Source: a virus
DNA length: 64,000 bases
IMG/VR virus record: IMGVR_UViG_3300009593_000016
Location: 1 to 64,000 of that record
Reading direction: 5' to 3' (one strand)
Part shown: piece after piece, positions 998 through 6,424 of the stretch
Layout of the letters: every line of letters begins with the position of its first letter
Position numbering within the stretch: the first letter of the stretch is position 1
The notes under the pieces: generated by a model
Seen by the model: only the letters and a program-made list of their open reading frames with translations
The model's database searches: none
Told to the model about the DNA's origin: nothing
Program-made: the position numbers and the translations under genes

Positions 998-1005
998 TAT
1001 TTATT
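998..1005 (-). promoter_or_regulatory. T4-type late promoter (AATAAATA) overlapping the zinc-knuckle stop
   Basis: AATAAATA contains the TAA stop of the zinc-knuckle gene and stands 24 nt upstream of the ATG at 974. Confidence 0.5.
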
Positions 1006-1099
1006 CCTTCTTAGGGCATTGTGTGGAAATATGGTCATAGCTTCCACACTTCTTACAGCAGTCTTTTTTCTCTGCTATGAACTCCTTAAAGGACTTCAT
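1001..1099 (-). CDS. 32-aa CCHC zinc-knuckle protein with capsid-targeting-like N-terminus
   Basis: ATG at 1099 overlaps the TGA of the histone-like gene (ATGA); TAA at 1003-1001. MKSFKEFIAE is almost the T4 internal-protein targeting sequence (MKTYQEFIAE) and ends in the I-x-E cleavage rule. The remaining 22 residues contain C-K-K-C-G-S-Y-D-H-I-S-T-Q-C. This is a perfect C-x2-C-x4-H-x4-C zinc knuckle of the retroviral nucleocapsid type, followed by PKKE. If processed, a 22-residue zinc-knuckle peptide would stay with DNA in the head. AAGG precedes the start only weakly; coupling to the gene before is the more likely mode. Confidence 0.65.
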   Translation of the reverse strand: MKSFKEFIAEKKDCCKKCGSYDHISTQCPKKE

Positions 1100-1812
1100 T
1101 TTCCTGATACTGCTTTGTATGCTTTCTTAGCAAATGATACTGTGTCCTTGACACCTTCCTTTGCTCCTTTAGCAAATTCCTTAGCACGTTTCTCAGGTGC
1201 TTTACCCTTAGCACGTTGCTTCTTGTATGCTGCTTTAGCATCTCCTACTGCTTTGTTATGCTTCTCAACACCCTTCTTAACATAGGATGTTACCTTACTT
1301 AGAACACCTTCTTTCTTAGCAGGTTTCTTAGGTTGCTTAGCTTTCACTGTCTTAACAGTAGCAACAACCTTCTTCTGTGTAGCAGCTTTCTTCTTAGCAG
1401 GAGCCTTCTTGACAGCAGCTTTCTTAGGTGCGTCATCTTCATAATTTGTATTGTCTTCGTCACCATACTTATTCTTGGCAGCAGTGGTCTTAGCATACTC
1501 ACCTTTACCTGCTGTCTTACGTGCAGCATCACCAGCATCAACCTTTGCTTTAACCTTCTCATATGAAGGTGCATTTGCTGCTGCTTTCTTTGCTGCTCTT
1601 ACTGCTTCCTCAAGATATTCTGTTGGAGGATTTACTACAAAGTCAGTAAATTCTTCTAGTCCAATCTCTTCTACGATGAGATCGATACCTTCTTCGTTTA
1701 TACCTTCCTCAACAAAGAAATCAGTAGCTACTTCTATGCTTGATTGTACCCATTCCTCAGTCAATACTGCCTCAGGATTAGAGTCTACTAGGTACCGTGA
1801 AAAACTTTTCAT
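1096..1812 (-). CDS. histone-H1-like Lys/Ala-rich protein with capsid-targeting-like N-terminus (238 aa)
   Basis: The start at 1812 (TAATG, with AAAGGAG upstream) gives MKSFSRYLVDSNPEAVLTE. This resembles the capsid-targeting sequence of T4 internal proteins, and L-T-E at residues 17-19 fits the gp21 protease rule L/I-x-E. Residues 20-80 are acidic and helical (DFFVEEGINEEGIDLIVEEI). From residue 80 the chain turns into Lys/Ala/Pro repeats (PKKAAVKKAPAKKKAATQKK, QPKKPAKKEG) like the tail of eukaryotic H1 or bacterial HU-like histones. A basic helix (AYKKQRAKGKAPEKRAKEFA) ends it. The likely role is DNA binding inside the head. Its stop and the next start overlap (ATGA). Confidence 0.7.
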   Translation of the reverse strand: MKSFSRYLVDSNPEAVLTEEWVQSSIEVATDFFVEEGINEEGIDLIVEEIGLEEFTDFVVNPPTEYLEEAVRAAKKAAANAPSYEKVKAKVDAGDAARKTAGKGEYAKTTAAKNKYGDEDNTNYEDDAPKKAAVKKAPAKKKAATQKKVVATVKTVKAKQPKKPAKKEGVLSKVTSYVKKGVEKHNKAVGDAKAAYKKQRAKGKAPEKRAKEFAKGAKEGVKDTVSFAKKAYKAVSGK

Positions 1813-1958
1813 TAAGCTGCTCCTTTGTTGTGGTCTGGGTGTCTGGGACAATTCTTTTCGTGTTTATCTATCCAAGCCTTAGAGTTCCAATGATTCTTTG
1901 GAGACTTAAGACCGCAGTATACACACTCGTACTGTCCACTTTCTAACAGTTTAGCCAT
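1812..1958 (-). CDS. small zinc-finger-like protein (48 aa)
   Basis: The ATG at 1958 overlaps the preceding stop (ATGGCTAA) and is chosen over an upstream start within that gene. The product AKLLESGQYECVYCGLKSPK then has K-A-W-I-D-K-H-E-K-N-C. This gives C-x2-C followed by H-x4-C about 17 residues later, a single C2HC zinc finger, with a basic His-rich tail (PRHPDHNKG). It likely binds nucleic acid. TAATG couples it to the histone-like gene. Confidence 0.65.
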   Translation of the reverse strand: MAKLLESGQYECVYCGLKSPKNHWNSKAWIDKHEKNCPRHPDHNKGAA

Positions 1959-2187
1959 TAGCCAATTCCTCTGCTTTCTGATTCCATTCGGCAAATGATG
2001 AACTGCAATCAGGGGGTTGTGGGTATTTATATCCTTTCATCTTCCTCCATTTATTATGGAGTGCTCCCATCATCCAAGACTGACTGAGACTCTTTGGTCC
2101 ATTCTCAAGAAGATCTAGTTCGTACCTACTGCTAGTGTACCCTTTATACTCTTCTCTCCAATTGGAATCGTCCCACTCAGTTGTCAT
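1951..2187 (-). CDS. small hypothetical protein (78 aa)
   Basis: The ATG at 2187 has AAAAGGAG 8 nt upstream, whereas the longer frame to 2259 lacks such a site. The product is Trp-rich (WDDSNWREEY, QSWMMGALHNKWRKM, FAEWNQKAEEL) with a run GYKYPQPPDCSSS. It overlaps the previous gene by 11 nt and the next by 8 nt, so it is part of a tightly coupled late cassette. No family recognised. Confidence 0.65.
   Translation of the reverse strand: MTTEWDDSNWREEYKGYTSSRYELDLLENGPKSLSQSWMMGALHNKWRKMKGYKYPQPPDCSSSFAEWNQKAEELANG
2024..2031 (-). promoter_or_regulatory. TATAAATA late-promoter match inside the 78-aa gene
   Basis: A perfect octamer lies 66 nt before the zinc-finger gene and about 210 nt before the histone-like gene. 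It sits in coding sequence (Gly-Tyr-Lys-Tyr), so chance is possible, but it would boost the next three genes. Confidence 0.4.
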
Positions 2188-2962
2188 AATGAAAGCTCCT
2201 TTTCTTAGTGTTTTTAGGATGTTTAGCACTTCTGACTTTATTGTCAGTAGTTTCACCATCTCCTCTAGGATGCTGACCTGCTTTTGTCTTACCTATATTG
2301 TAAGATGAACCAGGTTTCTTGGACTGAGTATCGTGTAAGCGTGCAGGTTTGTCCTTATCTTTTGTGATAACAGATTCCTGTCCGTGTTTTCTACCAAACC
2401 TACGAATGAGTTTGCCGTGCTTACGCTTTGACATTCCCTTACCAGGAGTGGTATGATACGATACTTCACTGCCCTGTTTGCCATCATCGTACTTATACTT
2501 TCCAACACTCTTCTTGTAACCGATACCCTTCTTCTTAAGATCTTTCTCAAGACCCTTTCGTTTCTTGCGGTTCTCGGTCTCACTGTCACCACGGTCAGCA
2601 GAAATGTGACCAGTGACTTGAGTCTTGGATTTGCTTACGGCTCTGGCTAGTCCTCCTTCGGAGATGAACTTCCCAAATGATAGCATACTATACCCCTGAG
2701 TGTGAAGGTTCATATCCACCCCCTTGACATCATTCCCCTTCTGGGCTTGCTGTACCTTAAGTCTTTGCTGTTGAATTTTCTTAATATTTAACATTAGCTG
2801 CCTTCTATCAAGCATCGCACCCTTCTTCTGGATGAGATTCAATCTTGCACTTGAACTAGATGGTGCTGCATTATTAGATGCTGCCCTAGCAGGAGGACGC
2901 TTTTCCTTCTGTGGTTTGATTGTTAAATTTTCTGTGGGTGATTTACCGTTAGCGTCTGGCAT
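2177..2962 (-). CDS. basic protein with internal capsid-targeting-like start (261 or 169 aa)
   Basis: Two in-frame starts both have ribosome-binding sites: ATG at 2962 (GGGAGG) and ATG at 2686 (CAGGGG, 6 nt spacing). The shorter form begins MLSFGKFISEGGLARAV, like the capsid-targeting sequence of T4 internal proteins, with I-S-E as a gp21-type cut site. The 92-residue N-terminal extension is disordered with a Gln/Lys helix. Next comes a basic domain: TGHISADRGDSETENRKKRK, GIGYKKSVGKYKYDDG, SKRKHGKLIRRFGRKHGQES. Its order (R-G-D, N-x-x-R, G-x-G-Y, G-Q-E-S-V-I) reminds me of DUF3293-type modules; that is a weak resemblance. A Lys-rich tail follows. It is probably a DNA-associated head protein. 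Confidence 0.6.
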   Translation of the reverse strand: MPDANGKSPTENLTIKPQKEKRPPARAASNNAAPSSSSARLNLIQKKGAMLDRRQLMLNIKKIQQQRLKVQQAQKGNDVKGVDMNLHTQGYSMLSFGKFISEGGLARAVSKSKTQVTGHISADRGDSETENRKKRKGLEKDLKKKGIGYKKSVGKYKYDDGKQGSEVSYHTTPGKGMSKRKHGKLIRRFGRKHGQESVITKDKDKPARLHDTQSKKPGSSYNIGKTKAGQHPRGDGETTDNKVRSAKHPKNTKKRSFHYDN

Positions 2963-2963
2963 A

Positions 2964-3509
2964 TCAGCCTCCCACTACTTGTACCTGTTCTACTACAACA
3001 CCACCGCTTCCAGATCCTGCGGTTAGTTTAACCACTCTGGAAATTACAGGTATGTTACCAGCAGTAGCATCAGCAGCAGATAATGCATAATCACCTGACG
3101 ATGAAGATGAATCAATATCAGTTGTAATAGTAGTGGCAGTAATAGCAGTTACTTTCTTTCCGTCAGCAATAGCAGATTCATATGCAGCGACAAACCCATC
3201 AGTATCTCCACCGTCTAGGGTCTCTACATAATCTCCAACACTAAATGTGTGGCGACCACCATTCGAATATCCTTCAACGGTTATTACTGAACCGTTAGCA
3301 TCAGTTGCACCAACAATCTTGGAGTGCTTTGCTTTACCTGCAGAAATTAATAATGCTTCTCCAGCTGCAAGTGTGATAGCAGGACCCGCGTCAACTTGAA
3401 TACTAGATGCTGCAGCGCAGTAACATCGTAGTGTACCCGTCTTCACTTTGATATAACCAGAACCTGAGGCACTGATTGTTTGCGTATCTAATACATTTAA
3501 TACTGACAT
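2964..3509 (-). CDS. putative structural protein (181 aa)
   Basis: The product begins SVLNVLDTQTISASGSGYIK. It is beta-rich, Ser/Ala/Thr/Gly-rich and free of Lys clusters, with AAASSIQVDAGPAITLAAGE, a GGRHTFSVGDYVETLDGGD loop and KVTAITATTITTDIDSSSS. Such composition is typical of capsid decoration, fibre or adhesive small proteins. It lies first in the cassette behind gene 16 and its late promoter. I recognise no named family. The stop is 2 nt from the next start. Confidence 0.6.
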   Translation of the reverse strand: MSVLNVLDTQTISASGSGYIKVKTGTLRCYCAAASSIQVDAGPAITLAAGEALLISAGKAKHSKIVGATDANGSVITVEGYSNGGRHTFSVGDYVETLDGGDTDGFVAAYESAIADGKKVTAITATTITTDIDSSSSSGDYALSAADATAGNIPVISRVVKLTAGSGSGGVVVEQVQVVGG

Positions 3510-3530: not shown

Positions 3531-3986
3531 TTATTTATCCTGTTGGGACTTTAGAAATTTAGCAAGATCAGCTGTGCTCCCAACGAACATAGTATTATTT
3601 GTAACTGGACCAGAGATTTTAGCTGGACCCTCCTCAAGTTCTTGCATTTTCTTTTGGAGATCTATTAACTTATCCGTGGTATCTGCCACGTTCTTGATTA
3701 AGTTACCAGCAACTTCATATGATCTAGGTGAATCAGTCTGTCCAGCAACTTCAAGAATACCATCAACAGCCTCCTGTCCTTTCTCTATAAGAGAATAGAG
3801 ATTGCCTCTAGTGTACTCATAATCTTTGCTGACCTGTTCCTGCTTCTGTAAGATGCTAGGGTCTGGTCCGACATCAACGATATCAGTCTTTTCTTTAGGT
3901 ATAATAGATGTTTCTATATCGAGAGCATCTTCCATACCCTTAAACTTATTCGTCAACTCCTGTGACTGGGTTTCTTGAGAGTCCAT
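3531..3986 (-). CDS. 16: small terminase subunit gp16
   Basis: The 151-aa protein has the family core DYEYTRGNLYSLIEKGQEAV, then ILEVAGQTDSPRSYEVAGNL and IKNVADTTDKLIDLQKKMQE, with the C-terminal VTNNTMFVGSTADLAKFLKS. This is typical of gp16, which recognises phage DNA and stimulates gp17 for packaging. The ATG at 3986 is chosen over a GTG at 3998. The large subunit gene is not within the window and should lie to the left of the small-gene cassette. Confidence 0.88.
   Translation of the reverse strand: MDSQETQSQELTNKFKGMEDALDIETSIIPKEKTDIVDVGPDPSILQKQEQVSKDYEYTRGNLYSLIEKGQEAVDGILEVAGQTDSPRSYEVAGNLIKNVADTTDKLIDLQKKMQELEEGPAKISGPVTNNTMFVGSTADLAKFLKSQQDK
3532..3539 (-). promoter_or_regulatory. 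T4-type late promoter (GATAAATA) of the left small-gene cassette
   Basis: GATAAATA overlaps the gp16 stop and stands 23 nt before the ATG at 3509, with GTAGGAAA as ribosome-binding sequence between. Confidence 0.65.
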
Positions 3987-4755
3987 CCTGGAAATCACTA
4001 GTTAGTTCATTAAATCCGAAGTTATCATCTGGGTCTGCATCAACAGGATCAGGTGTAACAGTATACCTGACTTCTCTTGCAGCAGTTACCTTACTGTCGG
4101 TTGCAGTATCGACAATAGCCTTCTTAATAAGTCCTCCAGCAGATGTGACAGGACCGTATAAGTATGTCTTACAGGTAAAGGACATTGTATATATCAGAGT
4201 TCTTCTCGTTGTATAGTCACCTTCGTAATCATCTTCATAAGAACAAGAGTTTAATACAACTGGGAAGTCTTTAACATCACCAAGTTCAGGTACCAACTTA
4301 ATAGTTAGACTGAATACTGGTTGAAAATATGGTAAGATCTGCTCAATAATTTGCAGACCATCATCCTGATTCTTAGCAAGAATTGCTAATTCAAAATCTA
4401 TATTATAAGGTACTGGCATAAATGCCTTCTTCACTGCAGCAGTACCTTGTGTTTCTGGCGGTGAATACCTTATAGTTTGTGTTGGTGAAACCTTTCTTGT
4501 ACTATCATATGCAAAGTTTGTTATCTCAAATGATATTCTAGGTAAGGTAATCTGTGTAGCTTGCTTACCAGTAAGGTTTCCAGTTTGTTGGAGACGTGCT
4601 AAAAACTTTTGCTTTGGACCATATGCCAAAGGCACTTTCATATATTCATAATCCGTAGCAGTTTTCTTCCTACGTATTTCAATATTATTGAATAGTGTAC
4701 CGAAGGCGACAACGGTCTTTCTGAATATTTCGTTGTATGTATACGTACCTAACAT
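3946..4755 (-). CDS. 15: tail sheath stabiliser / tail completion protein gp15
   Basis: The 269-aa protein (T4 gp15 is 272) shows LGTYTYNEIFRKTVVAFGTL, FNNIEIRRKK, KVPLAYGPKQKFLARLQQ and ITLPRISFEITNFAYDSTRK. It also shows PYNIDFELAILAKNQDDGLQ, IIEQILPYFQPVFSLTIKL and DDYEGDYTTRRTLIYTMSFT. gp15 forms the hexameric ring that caps tube and sheath and binds the neck. The C-terminus overlaps the gp16 start by about 40 nt. Confidence 0.95.
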   Translation of the reverse strand: MLGTYTYNEIFRKTVVAFGTLFNNIEIRRKKTATDYEYMKVPLAYGPKQKFLARLQQTGNLTGKQATQITLPRISFEITNFAYDSTRKVSPTQTIRYSPPETQGTAAVKKAFMPVPYNIDFELAILAKNQDDGLQIIEQILPYFQPVFSLTIKLVPELGDVKDFPVVLNSCSYEDDYEGDYTTRRTLIYTMSFTCKTYLYGPVTSAGGLIKKAIVDTATDSKVTAAREVRYTVTPDPVDADPDDNFGFNELTSDFQDGLSRNPVTGVDE

Positions 4756-4757
4756 AG

Positions 4758-5624
4758 TTAATTAGCCTGTCCGAATTCGCCAAATGGATTTCCTTCACTA
4801 AAGTCAAGGATACCATCTGCCTGTGTTTCAAGTGTAAAGTTCTGATCAAAGTCAGAGCTAGTATTATTTAGGGTATTATATGAAGCTGTAGTCCAAGCAG
4901 CACCAGATGTTTGACCAGTAATGGTCTCTGGTATTGAGAATATTCCAGTTCTATTAAACAATTGAAGTTGTCTATTAGTACTATCCCAAGCCTTAACTTC
5001 AGCAGTTACATTAGATGTACCACCAGCAACTACCTCACCAACAGTGAAGTCATTGGTACCACCCTCAGCAAAGTTGACTGTAATAGCAACAGAGAAGTCC
5101 TGTTCGATCTTATCTATAGCAGCAACACCAGTTGCAATGGTCTCATCACCGAACTCGAAGAGTTCACAACGTAATGTCCAAGTATGGATCTTACCTAACT
5201 GGAAGAACGGTTGCTCATAATCAACGTATTGTATTTGAAATAATTTATTTGCTAGAGGGAAGTAAACTAAATCTCCTTCATTTGGTCTACCCTCTACTAT
5301 TAATGTAGCATTATCATCAACTGCAGCAGTGAATCTAGTACGTGATATAACAAAGTTAACCTGATCTGATATACGTACACCAAACTTACTGTACATATCT
5401 CCATCACCACCAAACCCATTCACACTCTCTACGTATGCTTCTATTTCATATGCAGCATTAAACGCAGATAAACTATCCTCAGTAAATACCGTATTCTGGT
5501 TTACTAAGGATCGTGGCATATAGTACACATTTTTACCGAACATTTTTATCTGTTCTATAACAAGTTCTCCAACGAGATCCTGTTCACCAGTAGTACCTTG
5601 TGTAAAATAAGTGTTAGTTGCCAT
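4758..5624 (-). CDS. 14: neck protein gp14 with an inserted GE-G-SG module
   Basis: Residues 1-165 match gp14: EQDLVGELVIEQIKMFGKNV, YYMPRSLVNQNTVFTEDSL, KFGVRISDQVNFVISRTRF, EGDLVYFPLANKLFQIQYV and LGKIHTWTLRCELFEFGDE. T4 gp14 has 256 residues; here there are 288. The extra part is mainly residues 192-243 (FTVGEVVAGGTSNVTAEVKA, WDSTNRQLQLFNRTGIFS), a beta module repeated in gp8, the DUF4815, the 624-aa and the giant proteins. The usual gp14 end (FDQNFTLETQADGILDFSEG, NPFGEF) follows. gp14 forms the lower neck ring. Confidence 0.92.
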   Translation of the reverse strand: MATNTYFTQGTTGEQDLVGELVIEQIKMFGKNVYYMPRSLVNQNTVFTEDSLSAFNAAYEIEAYVESVNGFGGDGDMYSKFGVRISDQVNFVISRTRFTAAVDDNATLIVEGRPNEGDLVYFPLANKLFQIQYVDYEQPFFQLGKIHTWTLRCELFEFGDETIATGVAAIDKIEQDFSVAITVNFAEGGTNDFTVGEVVAGGTSNVTAEVKAWDSTNRQLQLFNRTGIFSIPETITGQTSGAAWTTASYNTLNNTSSDFDQNFTLETQADGILDFSEGNPFGEFGQAN

Positions 5625-6424
5625 TAGCCAATCATATCTAGTGGTGGAGTTTCATAAGTAAGTCTCAACTCTTCTTCTAACTTAGTAAGTTCCTCTACTG
5701 CATCACTATAAATCTTTTCACCGTTAAGAGTAACTCCGCCAGGAAGTTGTACATTCTGGAATTTAGTGAGGTTCATTCCCCACTGCTTCTTAATCATAGA
5801 AGTCGAATAATCCTTTAACCAAACTGCATTGTATATCTTAGTCCAGTTAGTAGGATCTAATGCACGTACACAATCTATAATTACATAGTCACCTTCTATC
5901 ACATCAGTGTCAGCATCAAAGTCCATATAGAGACGACCTTGAGTTGGCATAAATCTGGTAGGTTTCATTCCTTCTAAGAGGAAGTTAATAGTTTCCAAAT
6001 GAGTTTGGATCATAAAGTAATGATAGAACTGTGTAGATGTAAAATCATACAAGTCATTCAATCTTATCTGATACCTAATATCAAACATATTAGGTGTACC
6101 CTTATCTTGGAAAGTAAATATGCCATTCACACTTCTAATATGATCAGGCATTATTATGTAATTATTCTGAGTTTTAAACTCAGTAGTATTATCAGCACCA
6201 AGTTCAGTAGTATCAGCAGCAAAATTAGCTACATCAGCTGCTGTAAATTGATGTTTTAAATAAACTTTTTCAGCACCTTCGTAATGAAATTCTTGGAATT
6301 TTTCAATAGAATAATCTAGAGCATCATCTATCTGGTCATCGGAAACATTAATCTCCAATACTGGTTTACCCAGTCTCCGAAGACAATACTCCTTAAGAGT
6401 TGCTTTTGAATTTGGTTGTGCCAT
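5624..6424 (-). CDS. 13: neck protein gp13
   Basis: The 266-aa protein starts AQPNSKATLKEYCLRRLGKP, followed by LEINVSDDQIDDALDYSIEK and FQEFHYEGAEKVYLKHQ, the conserved head of gp13 in T4-like phages. Further on, GIFTFQDKGTPNMFDIRYQI, FLLEGMKPTRFMPTQGRLYM and DPTNWTKIYNAVWLKDYSTS fit the family. T4 gp13 has 309 residues. With gp14 it seals the filled head and makes the collar that docks the tail. Order 13-14-15-16 is as in T4. The stop overlaps the gp14 start (TAATG). Confidence 0.92.
   Translation of the reverse strand: MAQPNSKATLKEYCLRRLGKPVLEINVSDDQIDDALDYSIEKFQEFHYEGAEKVYLKHQFTAADVANFAADTTELGADNTTEFKTQNNYIIMPDHIRSVNGIFTFQDKGTPNMFDIRYQIRLNDLYDFTSTQFYHYFMIQTHLETINFLLEGMKPTRFMPTQGRLYMDFDADTDVIEGDYVIIDCVRALDPTNWTKIYNAVWLKDYSTSMIKKQWGMNLTKFQNVQLPGGVTLNGEKIYSDAVEELTKLEEELRLTYETPPLDMIG

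Follow-up and report, generated by a model that had tools for sequence, protein, structure and literature searches.

The cassette at positions 1001-2962 (minus strand) of a cyanophage genome fragment probably encodes head cargo of a T4-like phage: proteins that would be targeted into the prohead by short leader segments, cut by the prohead protease gp21 and ejected into the host, among them a homologue of phage S-adenosylmethionine (SAM) lyases that may act as an anti-defence enzyme. The window analysed here consists of the first 64,000 bases of a virus record of 77,079 bases (IMG/VR record IMGVR_UViG_3300009593_000016), which is itself a fragment. The first 6.5 kb of the window have matches in 466 phage records out of 50,697, and 441 of the matching records bear the name Synechococcus phage, Prochlorococcus phage or cyanophage; the source phage is a marine cyanophage related to T4. 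Downstream of gp16, the cassette contains three leader-bearing frames, P0001, P0002 and P0003; all three neighbouring T4-leader-like frames described in a first-pass annotation of this DNA are present. That these proteins are packaged in this phage, cleaved and ejected, that the lyase homologue is enzymatically active and that it counters host defences is what we infer from the evidence below. The elements of the cassette are as follows.

1001-1099, minus strand: P0001, 32 amino acids, leader and zinc knuckle (zf-CCHC profile)
1070-1099, minus strand: P0001 residues 1-10, leader MKSFKEFIAE with predicted cut (/) as MKSFKEFIAE/KKDCC (leader pattern)
1096-1812, minus strand: P0002, 238 amino acids, with leader, acidic domain and Lys/Ala-rich tail (open reading frame (ORF), composition)
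1756-1812, minus strand: P0002 residues 1-19, MKSFSRYLVDSNPEAVLTE, then /EWVQ, a leader like that of T4 ipI with D10 and L-T-E at 17-19 (T4 comparison)
1588-1755, minus strand: P0002 residues 20-75, conserved domain that shares a single ORF with the SAM lyase in relatives (relatives' ORFs)
1099-1548, minus strand: P0002 residues 89-238, Lys/Ala-rich basic tail (27% K, 20% A, isoelectric point (pI) 10.6)
2177-2962, minus strand: P0003, ORF of 261 amino acids, putative cargo precursor with SAM lyase homology (ORF call, Pfam)
2687-2962, minus strand: P0003 residues 1-92, N-terminal extension (codon-position bias against the related loci L010 and L011-L013)
2657-2686, minus strand: P0003 residues 93-102, segment resembling a leader (MLSFGKFISE) with a predicted gp21-type site, predicted cut after E102 (113 of 113 contexts with [ILMVF]-x-E)
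2180-2656, minus strand: P0003 residues 103-261, SAM lyase domain and tail (PF23780, fold searches, active-site residues)

The leader segments resemble the capsid-targeting sequence of the T4 internal proteins (IPs). In the T4 record, ipII and ipIII start with MKTYQEFIAE and ipI with MKTFKEFTSTTTPVSTITE. According to PMC9026906, residues 4 and 7 of IPIII are important for targeting and residues 8 and 10 for processing, and an Asp at position 10 stops cutting while targeting is kept. Aromatic residues occupy leader positions 4 and 7 as F4/F7 in P0001 and the P0003 segment and as F4/Y7 in P0002. All four T4 features (positions 4, 7, 8 and 10) are present in P0001 and the P0003 segment, with the sites IAE and ISE. 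The T4-like starts proposed earlier for all three frames match in these two cases; in P0002, residue 10 is D instead of E. Its leader combines F4, Y7, L8 and D10 with L-T-E at 17-19, where T4 ipI has I-T-E, at which IPI is presumably cut, judging from the stated propeptides of 10-19 residues. I-A-E, I-S-E and L-T-E, all of which the annotation had read as gp21-type sites, do have counterparts in ipI, ipII and ipIII of the T4 record. In the near relatives L010 and L011, F4, Y7, L8, D10 and LTE of the P0002 leader are kept, and residues 5, 6 and 9 vary.

A loose leader pattern close after M, in frames of at least 30 codons, occurs six times in the 77,079-base record: in the three cassette segments, twice inside other frames and once in a 30-codon frame. 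Among 199 related loci (1.6 Mb), the pattern M-x(1-3)-[FY]-x2-[FY]-[ILMV]-x-E yielded 71 distinct 30-mers versus 1-20 for each of nine altered patterns that keep the M; part of this excess is built in, since the loci were retrieved using the cassette genes and a homologue from cyanophage S-CREM2 as queries. Swapping the M to L, I or K gave 33, 22 and 80 distinct 30-mers, the last count being raised in part by in-frame internal copies, for example LKRFSDFIQE. The patterns for the counts in the related loci, as well as for the cleavage-site and virion-enrichment counts below, were set after the first leaders had been seen, which makes the p-values and controls descriptive. Immediately downstream of the SAM lyase, a search for leader genes with a Shine-Dalgarno filter retained 3 of 200 candidates, all of the P0002 type; the filter ignored the three bases before the ATG and therefore misses starts like that of P0001.

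The predicted gp21-type site in front of the SAM lyase domain recurs among relatives. SAM lyase domains with the active-site signature were gathered from 182 loci and represent 113 distinct contexts, which are related by descent and not a count of independent events. All 113 contexts fit [ILMVF]-x-E/[GSTA]; the search required a glutamate at a fixed spacing ahead of the domain and left the P3 and P1' residues free. The residue two before the glutamate is I (53), L (41), M (9), V (7) or F (3), and the residue after it G (57), S (32), T (22) or A (2). The site is located either near a start or within ORFs of up to 1046 codons. The aromatic pair accompanies it in 95 of the 113 contexts, 70 of them with an M, not always a start, at most three residues ahead. 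Among the 18 contexts that lack the pair, three are of the P-SSM7 type (MYYKDFINLVE/GN) and the majority of the rest are longer ORFs retaining YIDE, LSE, EIDE or LVSE. Several such ORFs have N-terminal leaders of their own (L099 MKTFQQFTTE, L101 MKTYQEFTTE, L115 MRTYQEFVSE, L134 MKTYKEFIRE, L167 MKTFQEFMIE), and an own leader together with a pair-less internal site is what one would expect of targeting and cutting signals that are distinct from each other. By eye, the major capsid proteins show comparable sites, LLTE/A (E56) in S-CREM2 and ILTE/A (E52) in S-SZBM1, near the position of the 65-residue loss of T4 gp23.

Judged by sequence profile and modelled fold, the domain behind MLSFGKFISE is a homologue of phage SAM lyases. 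The first-pass annotation had called it a strongly basic domain, part of a set that looked DNA-condensing or host-acting; the basic character holds (P0003 pI 10.7), but the domain belongs to an enzyme family and is not just a DNA condenser. PF23780 (S-AdoMet lyase) scored 31.9 bits at a Pfam cut-off of 28, and plain DNA condensation as the whole story was dropped for P0003 after this score. Two AlphaFold models, one from 30 sequences and one of the predicted mature part from 53 sequences of two clades, both have the order beta-alpha-beta-beta-alpha-beta, and Foldseek ranked the phage SAM lyase 6znb first for both (E 4.3e-3 and 5.6e-4). In VIA-align, SAM lyases lead for model 1 with Z 7.6 and 7.5, a third one following at rank 4 (6.7), and for model 2 with Z 10.8, 10.7 and 9.1 versus 8.4 for the next rows, which are designed proteins. 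Active SAM lyases strictly conserve G56, E69 and Q104, with Y58 and E105 also in the site (Svi3-3 numbering; PMC7877911). Matched by order and spacing, not by residue alignment, G56, Y58, E69, Q104 and E105 correspond to G62, Y64, E74, Q103 and E104 here; G62, Y64, E74 and Q103 do not vary across 24 sequences from two clades, and residue 104 is E or D. PDB sequence searches gave no match with P0003, only weak unrelated matches with profile A1 and one weak unrelated match with the first 45 residues of S-CREM2 ORF6; PADLOC had no match for P0002, P0003 or S-CREM2 ORF12. P0003 falls into the PHROG families phrog_26015 (4.9e-71) and phrog_12788 (5e-66), both without an assigned function.

The annotation had also started the third frame at the internal ATG at 2686. 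This ATG is probably not the main start, because the preceding 92 codons have the conservation pattern of coding sequence, with 10/6/25 changes at codon positions 1/2/3 in comparison to L010 and 12/9/20 in comparison to L011. The codon pattern points to a 261-residue precursor with an internal segment, to be cut as MLSFGKFISE/GGLAR. GGGAGG precedes the start at 2962 and AGGGG the ATG at 2686, which may serve as an additional internal start; the relatives L015, L056 and L076 do start at MLSF.

For P0001, the zinc knuckle recognized earlier holds, with zf-CCHC (PF00098) at 21.0 bits (cut-off 20.8) and the spacing C-x2-C-x4-H-x4-C in CKKCGSYDHISTQC. The tail of P0002, described as H1-like, resembles linker histone only by its Lys/Ala-rich composition, and no Pfam family matched it at E 0.1 or better. 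The zinc-knuckle and Lys-rich proteins are probably nucleic-acid binding. In relatives these modules are fused: a single ORF of 695 codons in L045 combines the SAM lyase with a zinc knuckle and with the P0002 domain plus its Lys/Ala-rich tail, and the P0002 domain and the SAM lyase share one ORF in L064, L070, L178 and L180. The three genes of the window match the modules of one polyprotein, which argues for joint action.

Virion proteomics of related cyanophages provides the link to packaging. In S-CREM2, 52 virion proteins were identified by mass spectrometry, including the SAM hydrolase ORF6 with 19 unique peptides, and the authors suggest that ORF6 may shield entering DNA from restriction (PMC10665884). 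ORF6 starts with MKDFDSFLEE, scores E 2.3e-19 with PF23780 and is identical to P0003 at 48 of 121 positions (40%; E 6e-13 in a single pairwise comparison). Further virion proteins of S-CREM2 carry the leader, namely a kinase (ORF14, 21 peptides, VKRFDAFLTE), a cytidylyltransferase (ORF154, 3 peptides, MKNFSSFLTE) and ORF13 (1 peptide, MKDLHSFLTE), and ORF12, annotated as Cas9 (28 peptides), has LRFASFMAE at about residues 18-26. No Pfam family at E 0.01 or better was found for ORF12 (L085 7704-10313). The motif occurs within the first 12 residues of 4 of the 52 virion proteins versus 1 of 167 other proteins (p 0.012), with five matches versus a mean of 0.25 and a maximum of 3 in shuffled sequences. 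Within the first 40 residues the numbers are 5 of 52 versus 2 of 167 (p 0.009), the shuffled mean being 1.6 and the shuffled maximum of 7 equal to the observed total, and a looser initial pattern gave 4 of 52 versus 2 of 167 (p 0.029). By eye, ORF12, the kinase and cytidylyltransferases share a post-leader stretch of the type LGL..GhG.Y.D....IVA.T..GELVF.

The kinase of S-CRM01, which is cited as virion-detected (PMC10665884), starts with MISFDQFLSE. The cytidylyltransferase family T4-GC190 was detected in S-SM1 virions (PMC3037559), and its members in S-SM2, P-SSM7, S-RIM2 and S-SCSM2R carry the leader. The S-PM2 cytidylyltransferase, as annotated, has no leader and was not among the proteins detected in S-PM2 virions, where known structural proteins were missed too (PMC3037559). 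From 100 relatives of the P-SSM7 enzyme, 80 were kept and three with an incomplete N-terminus dropped (L251, L259, L299), leaving 77 sequences, 62 of them distinct. All 62 carry the leader with zero entropy at residues 4, 7, 8 and 10, and residue 9, at 2.1 bits, is the most variable of the first 14.

The favoured explanation can be put as a sequence of events. The cassette would be expressed together with the head genes, and the leader segments would carry the proteins into the prohead core via the aromatic residues 4 and 7, as in T4 IPIII. A gp21-type protease would then cut after [IL]-x-E and release the mature proteins, which would remain alongside the DNA and pass into the host upon infection. 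There, the delivered SAM lyase homologue could lower SAM before phage gene expression and thereby blunt SAM-dependent defences (Type I or III restriction, bacteriophage exclusion (BREX)) or host methylation, with the zinc-knuckle and Lys-rich proteins as co-packaged partners. A wider proposal is tentative: marine T4-like cyanophages might share a capsid-loading code of T4 leader and gp21-type sites, used for single enzymes and polyproteins. In this proposal the SAM lyase would be produced late within a fused and perhaps inactive precursor, sparing methylation of the phage's own DNA; gp21 would free it only within the prohead, and its action would be confined to the next host, at the time of entry.

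Several observations weigh against the cargo explanation. The earlier idea of a packaged set is backed by T4-type segments on neighbouring genes beside head genes and by virion mass spectrometry of homologues and analogues in S-CREM2, S-SZBM1 and S-CRM01, but the third segment most probably represents a cleavage site inside the 261-residue precursor. At P1', P0001 has K and P0002 has E, whereas the SAM lyase sites have G/S/T/A there, and the P0002 leader was rejected as a family-wide conserved site, the residues before the EWxxxxxxVA domain varying among the 34 loci listed. A search for gp21 in the incomplete 77-kb record found none, and the control genomes gave no match either; the relatives S-CREM2 and S-SZBM1, whose genomes are complete, do have gp21. 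Among the 30 virion proteins detected in S-SZBM1 (PMC9146016), a short list, the SAM-lyase polyprotein gp082 and the leader proteins gp084 and gp085 are absent, and the motif is not enriched (1 of 30 versus 2 of 188 other proteins, p 0.36), the sole motif-bearing virion protein being a cytidylyltransferase. The AlphaFold confidence is modest (predicted local distance difference test, pLDDT, 62.7 for model 1 and 68.2 for model 2), and late timing is deduced from gene position only. Finally, T3 SAMase blocks BREX through SAM cleavage and binding of the host methionine adenosyltransferase (MAT), and mutants without SAM cleavage can retain anti-restriction (PMC12707154), so that the effect may exceed SAM loss and the assumed action may be wrong.

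Alternatively, the cassette could encode accessory proteins of the prohead core or scaffold that are cut by gp21 and serve assembly or DNA packing, the SAM-lyase fold being structural or DNA-binding and having no action on the host. The strongly basic character of P0003 and of the P0002 tail, the position next to gp16 and the influence of T4 IPIII on head assembly (PMC9026906) agree with such a role. We nevertheless regard it as unlikely, as a purely structural role does not require active-site residues that are invariant in two clades, and other leader-bearing virion proteins are annotated as enzymes. It is more doubtful still that the SAM lyase is active only in the producing cell and that its relatives entered virion preparations by carry-over. 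The S-CREM2 authors caution about such carry-over of enzymes (PMC10665884), the SAM lyase of T3 is an expressed early protein not known as packaged (PMC8406200), and gp082 is missing from the S-SZBM1 virion proteins. However, carry-over leaves both the [IL]-x-E site in 113 of 113 contexts and the leader on unrelated virion enzymes unexplained, and the gene adjoins head genes. A chance resemblance to the T4 leader in short, degenerate segments, to which shuffled S-CREM2 N-termini with up to 3 (first 12 residues) and 7 (first 40) matches lend some colour, is highly improbable and was set aside in view of the five matches against a shuffled mean of 0.25, the altered patterns, the 113 of 113 sites and the zero entropy of the cytidylyltransferase leaders.

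The genomic setting of the putative cargo genes is that of head genes. Homologues of gp13-gp16, named via P-TIM40 matches, lie at 3531-6424 (minus strand), and the gene order after gp16 is DUF7243 protein, 261-residue ORF, two small proteins, P0002 and P0001; the counterpart of this stretch sits between gp16 and gp17 in P-TIM40, S-SZBM1 and P-SSM7.

2964-3509: DUF7243 protein, adjoining the gp13-gp16 homologues

One small protein (1812-1958, minus strand) is zinc-finger-like, with CVYC and HEKNC, and by eye resembles S-SZBM1 gp083 at the same place. An ORF of 8862 amino acids extends over 27295-53883 (minus strand); the S-SZBM1 virion protein gp068 (6619 amino acids) occupies a similar genome part. 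The late-promoter word TATAAATA is not above chance in the window (5 found versus 6.0 expected); all five copies (590, 2024, 12877, 13564 and 22322, minus strand) are on the coding strand. Scans for sigma-70 promoters and terminators gave no usable result. By eye, a DNA methyltransferase-like ORF (TSPPYYGLRDYG; L004 12033-12971) is found beyond the window, at roughly 72.0-73.0 kb of the record that also carries the SAM lyase. In S-H34 (L218 5449-7448) and S-CREM2 (L085 3837-6135), a single small gene separates the SAM lyase gene from that of a DNA adenine methylase, an enzyme that would use SAM.

If the cargo explanation is true, capsid-travelling proteins of cyanophages would be predictable from sequence, the kinases, cytidylyltransferases and SAM hydrolases in cyanophage virion proteomes would be accounted for, and the T4 concept of injected anti-restriction proteins would be widened to marine phages. 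The predicted cuts after named glutamates can be checked in already existing mass-spectrometry data. A virion SAM hydrolase in a cyanophage is already published (PMC10665884), and among the matches listed in the open-access literature this paper is the one connecting SAM hydrolase with cyanophage virions. Among these matches, neither the T4-type leader nor the conserved gp21-type site or the polyprotein arrangement was found in print for cyanophages, and sections 18 and 19 of PMC10665884 do not mention a leader or cleavage of ORF6.

Compared with known systems, S-CREM2 ORF6 shares with P0003 the family PF23780 and the leader, and differs by its 414 amino acids, an extra C-terminal part and another genome place. 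Svi3-3 and T3 SAMase share the fold and the G-x-Y, E and Q-E/D residues; unlike them, the cyanophage form lies behind a predicted cleavable leader or in a polyprotein and has no detectable PDB sequence match. For phrog_26015 and phrog_12788, of which P0003 is a member and whose function is blank, we offer that of a SAM lyase homologue behind a predicted cleavage site. With T4 IPI, IPII and IPIII, the cassette shares leader residues 4, 7, 8 and 10, the second-site variant at 17-19 and basic, non-homologous mature parts behind a common leader; Ip1-3 of T4 are injected inhibitors of GmrSD enzymes (PMC12373910). Unlike in T4, packaging is a prediction for this phage, one leader may be internal, and the cargo includes a SAM lyase homologue, to which relatives add other enzymes and polyproteins with internal sites.

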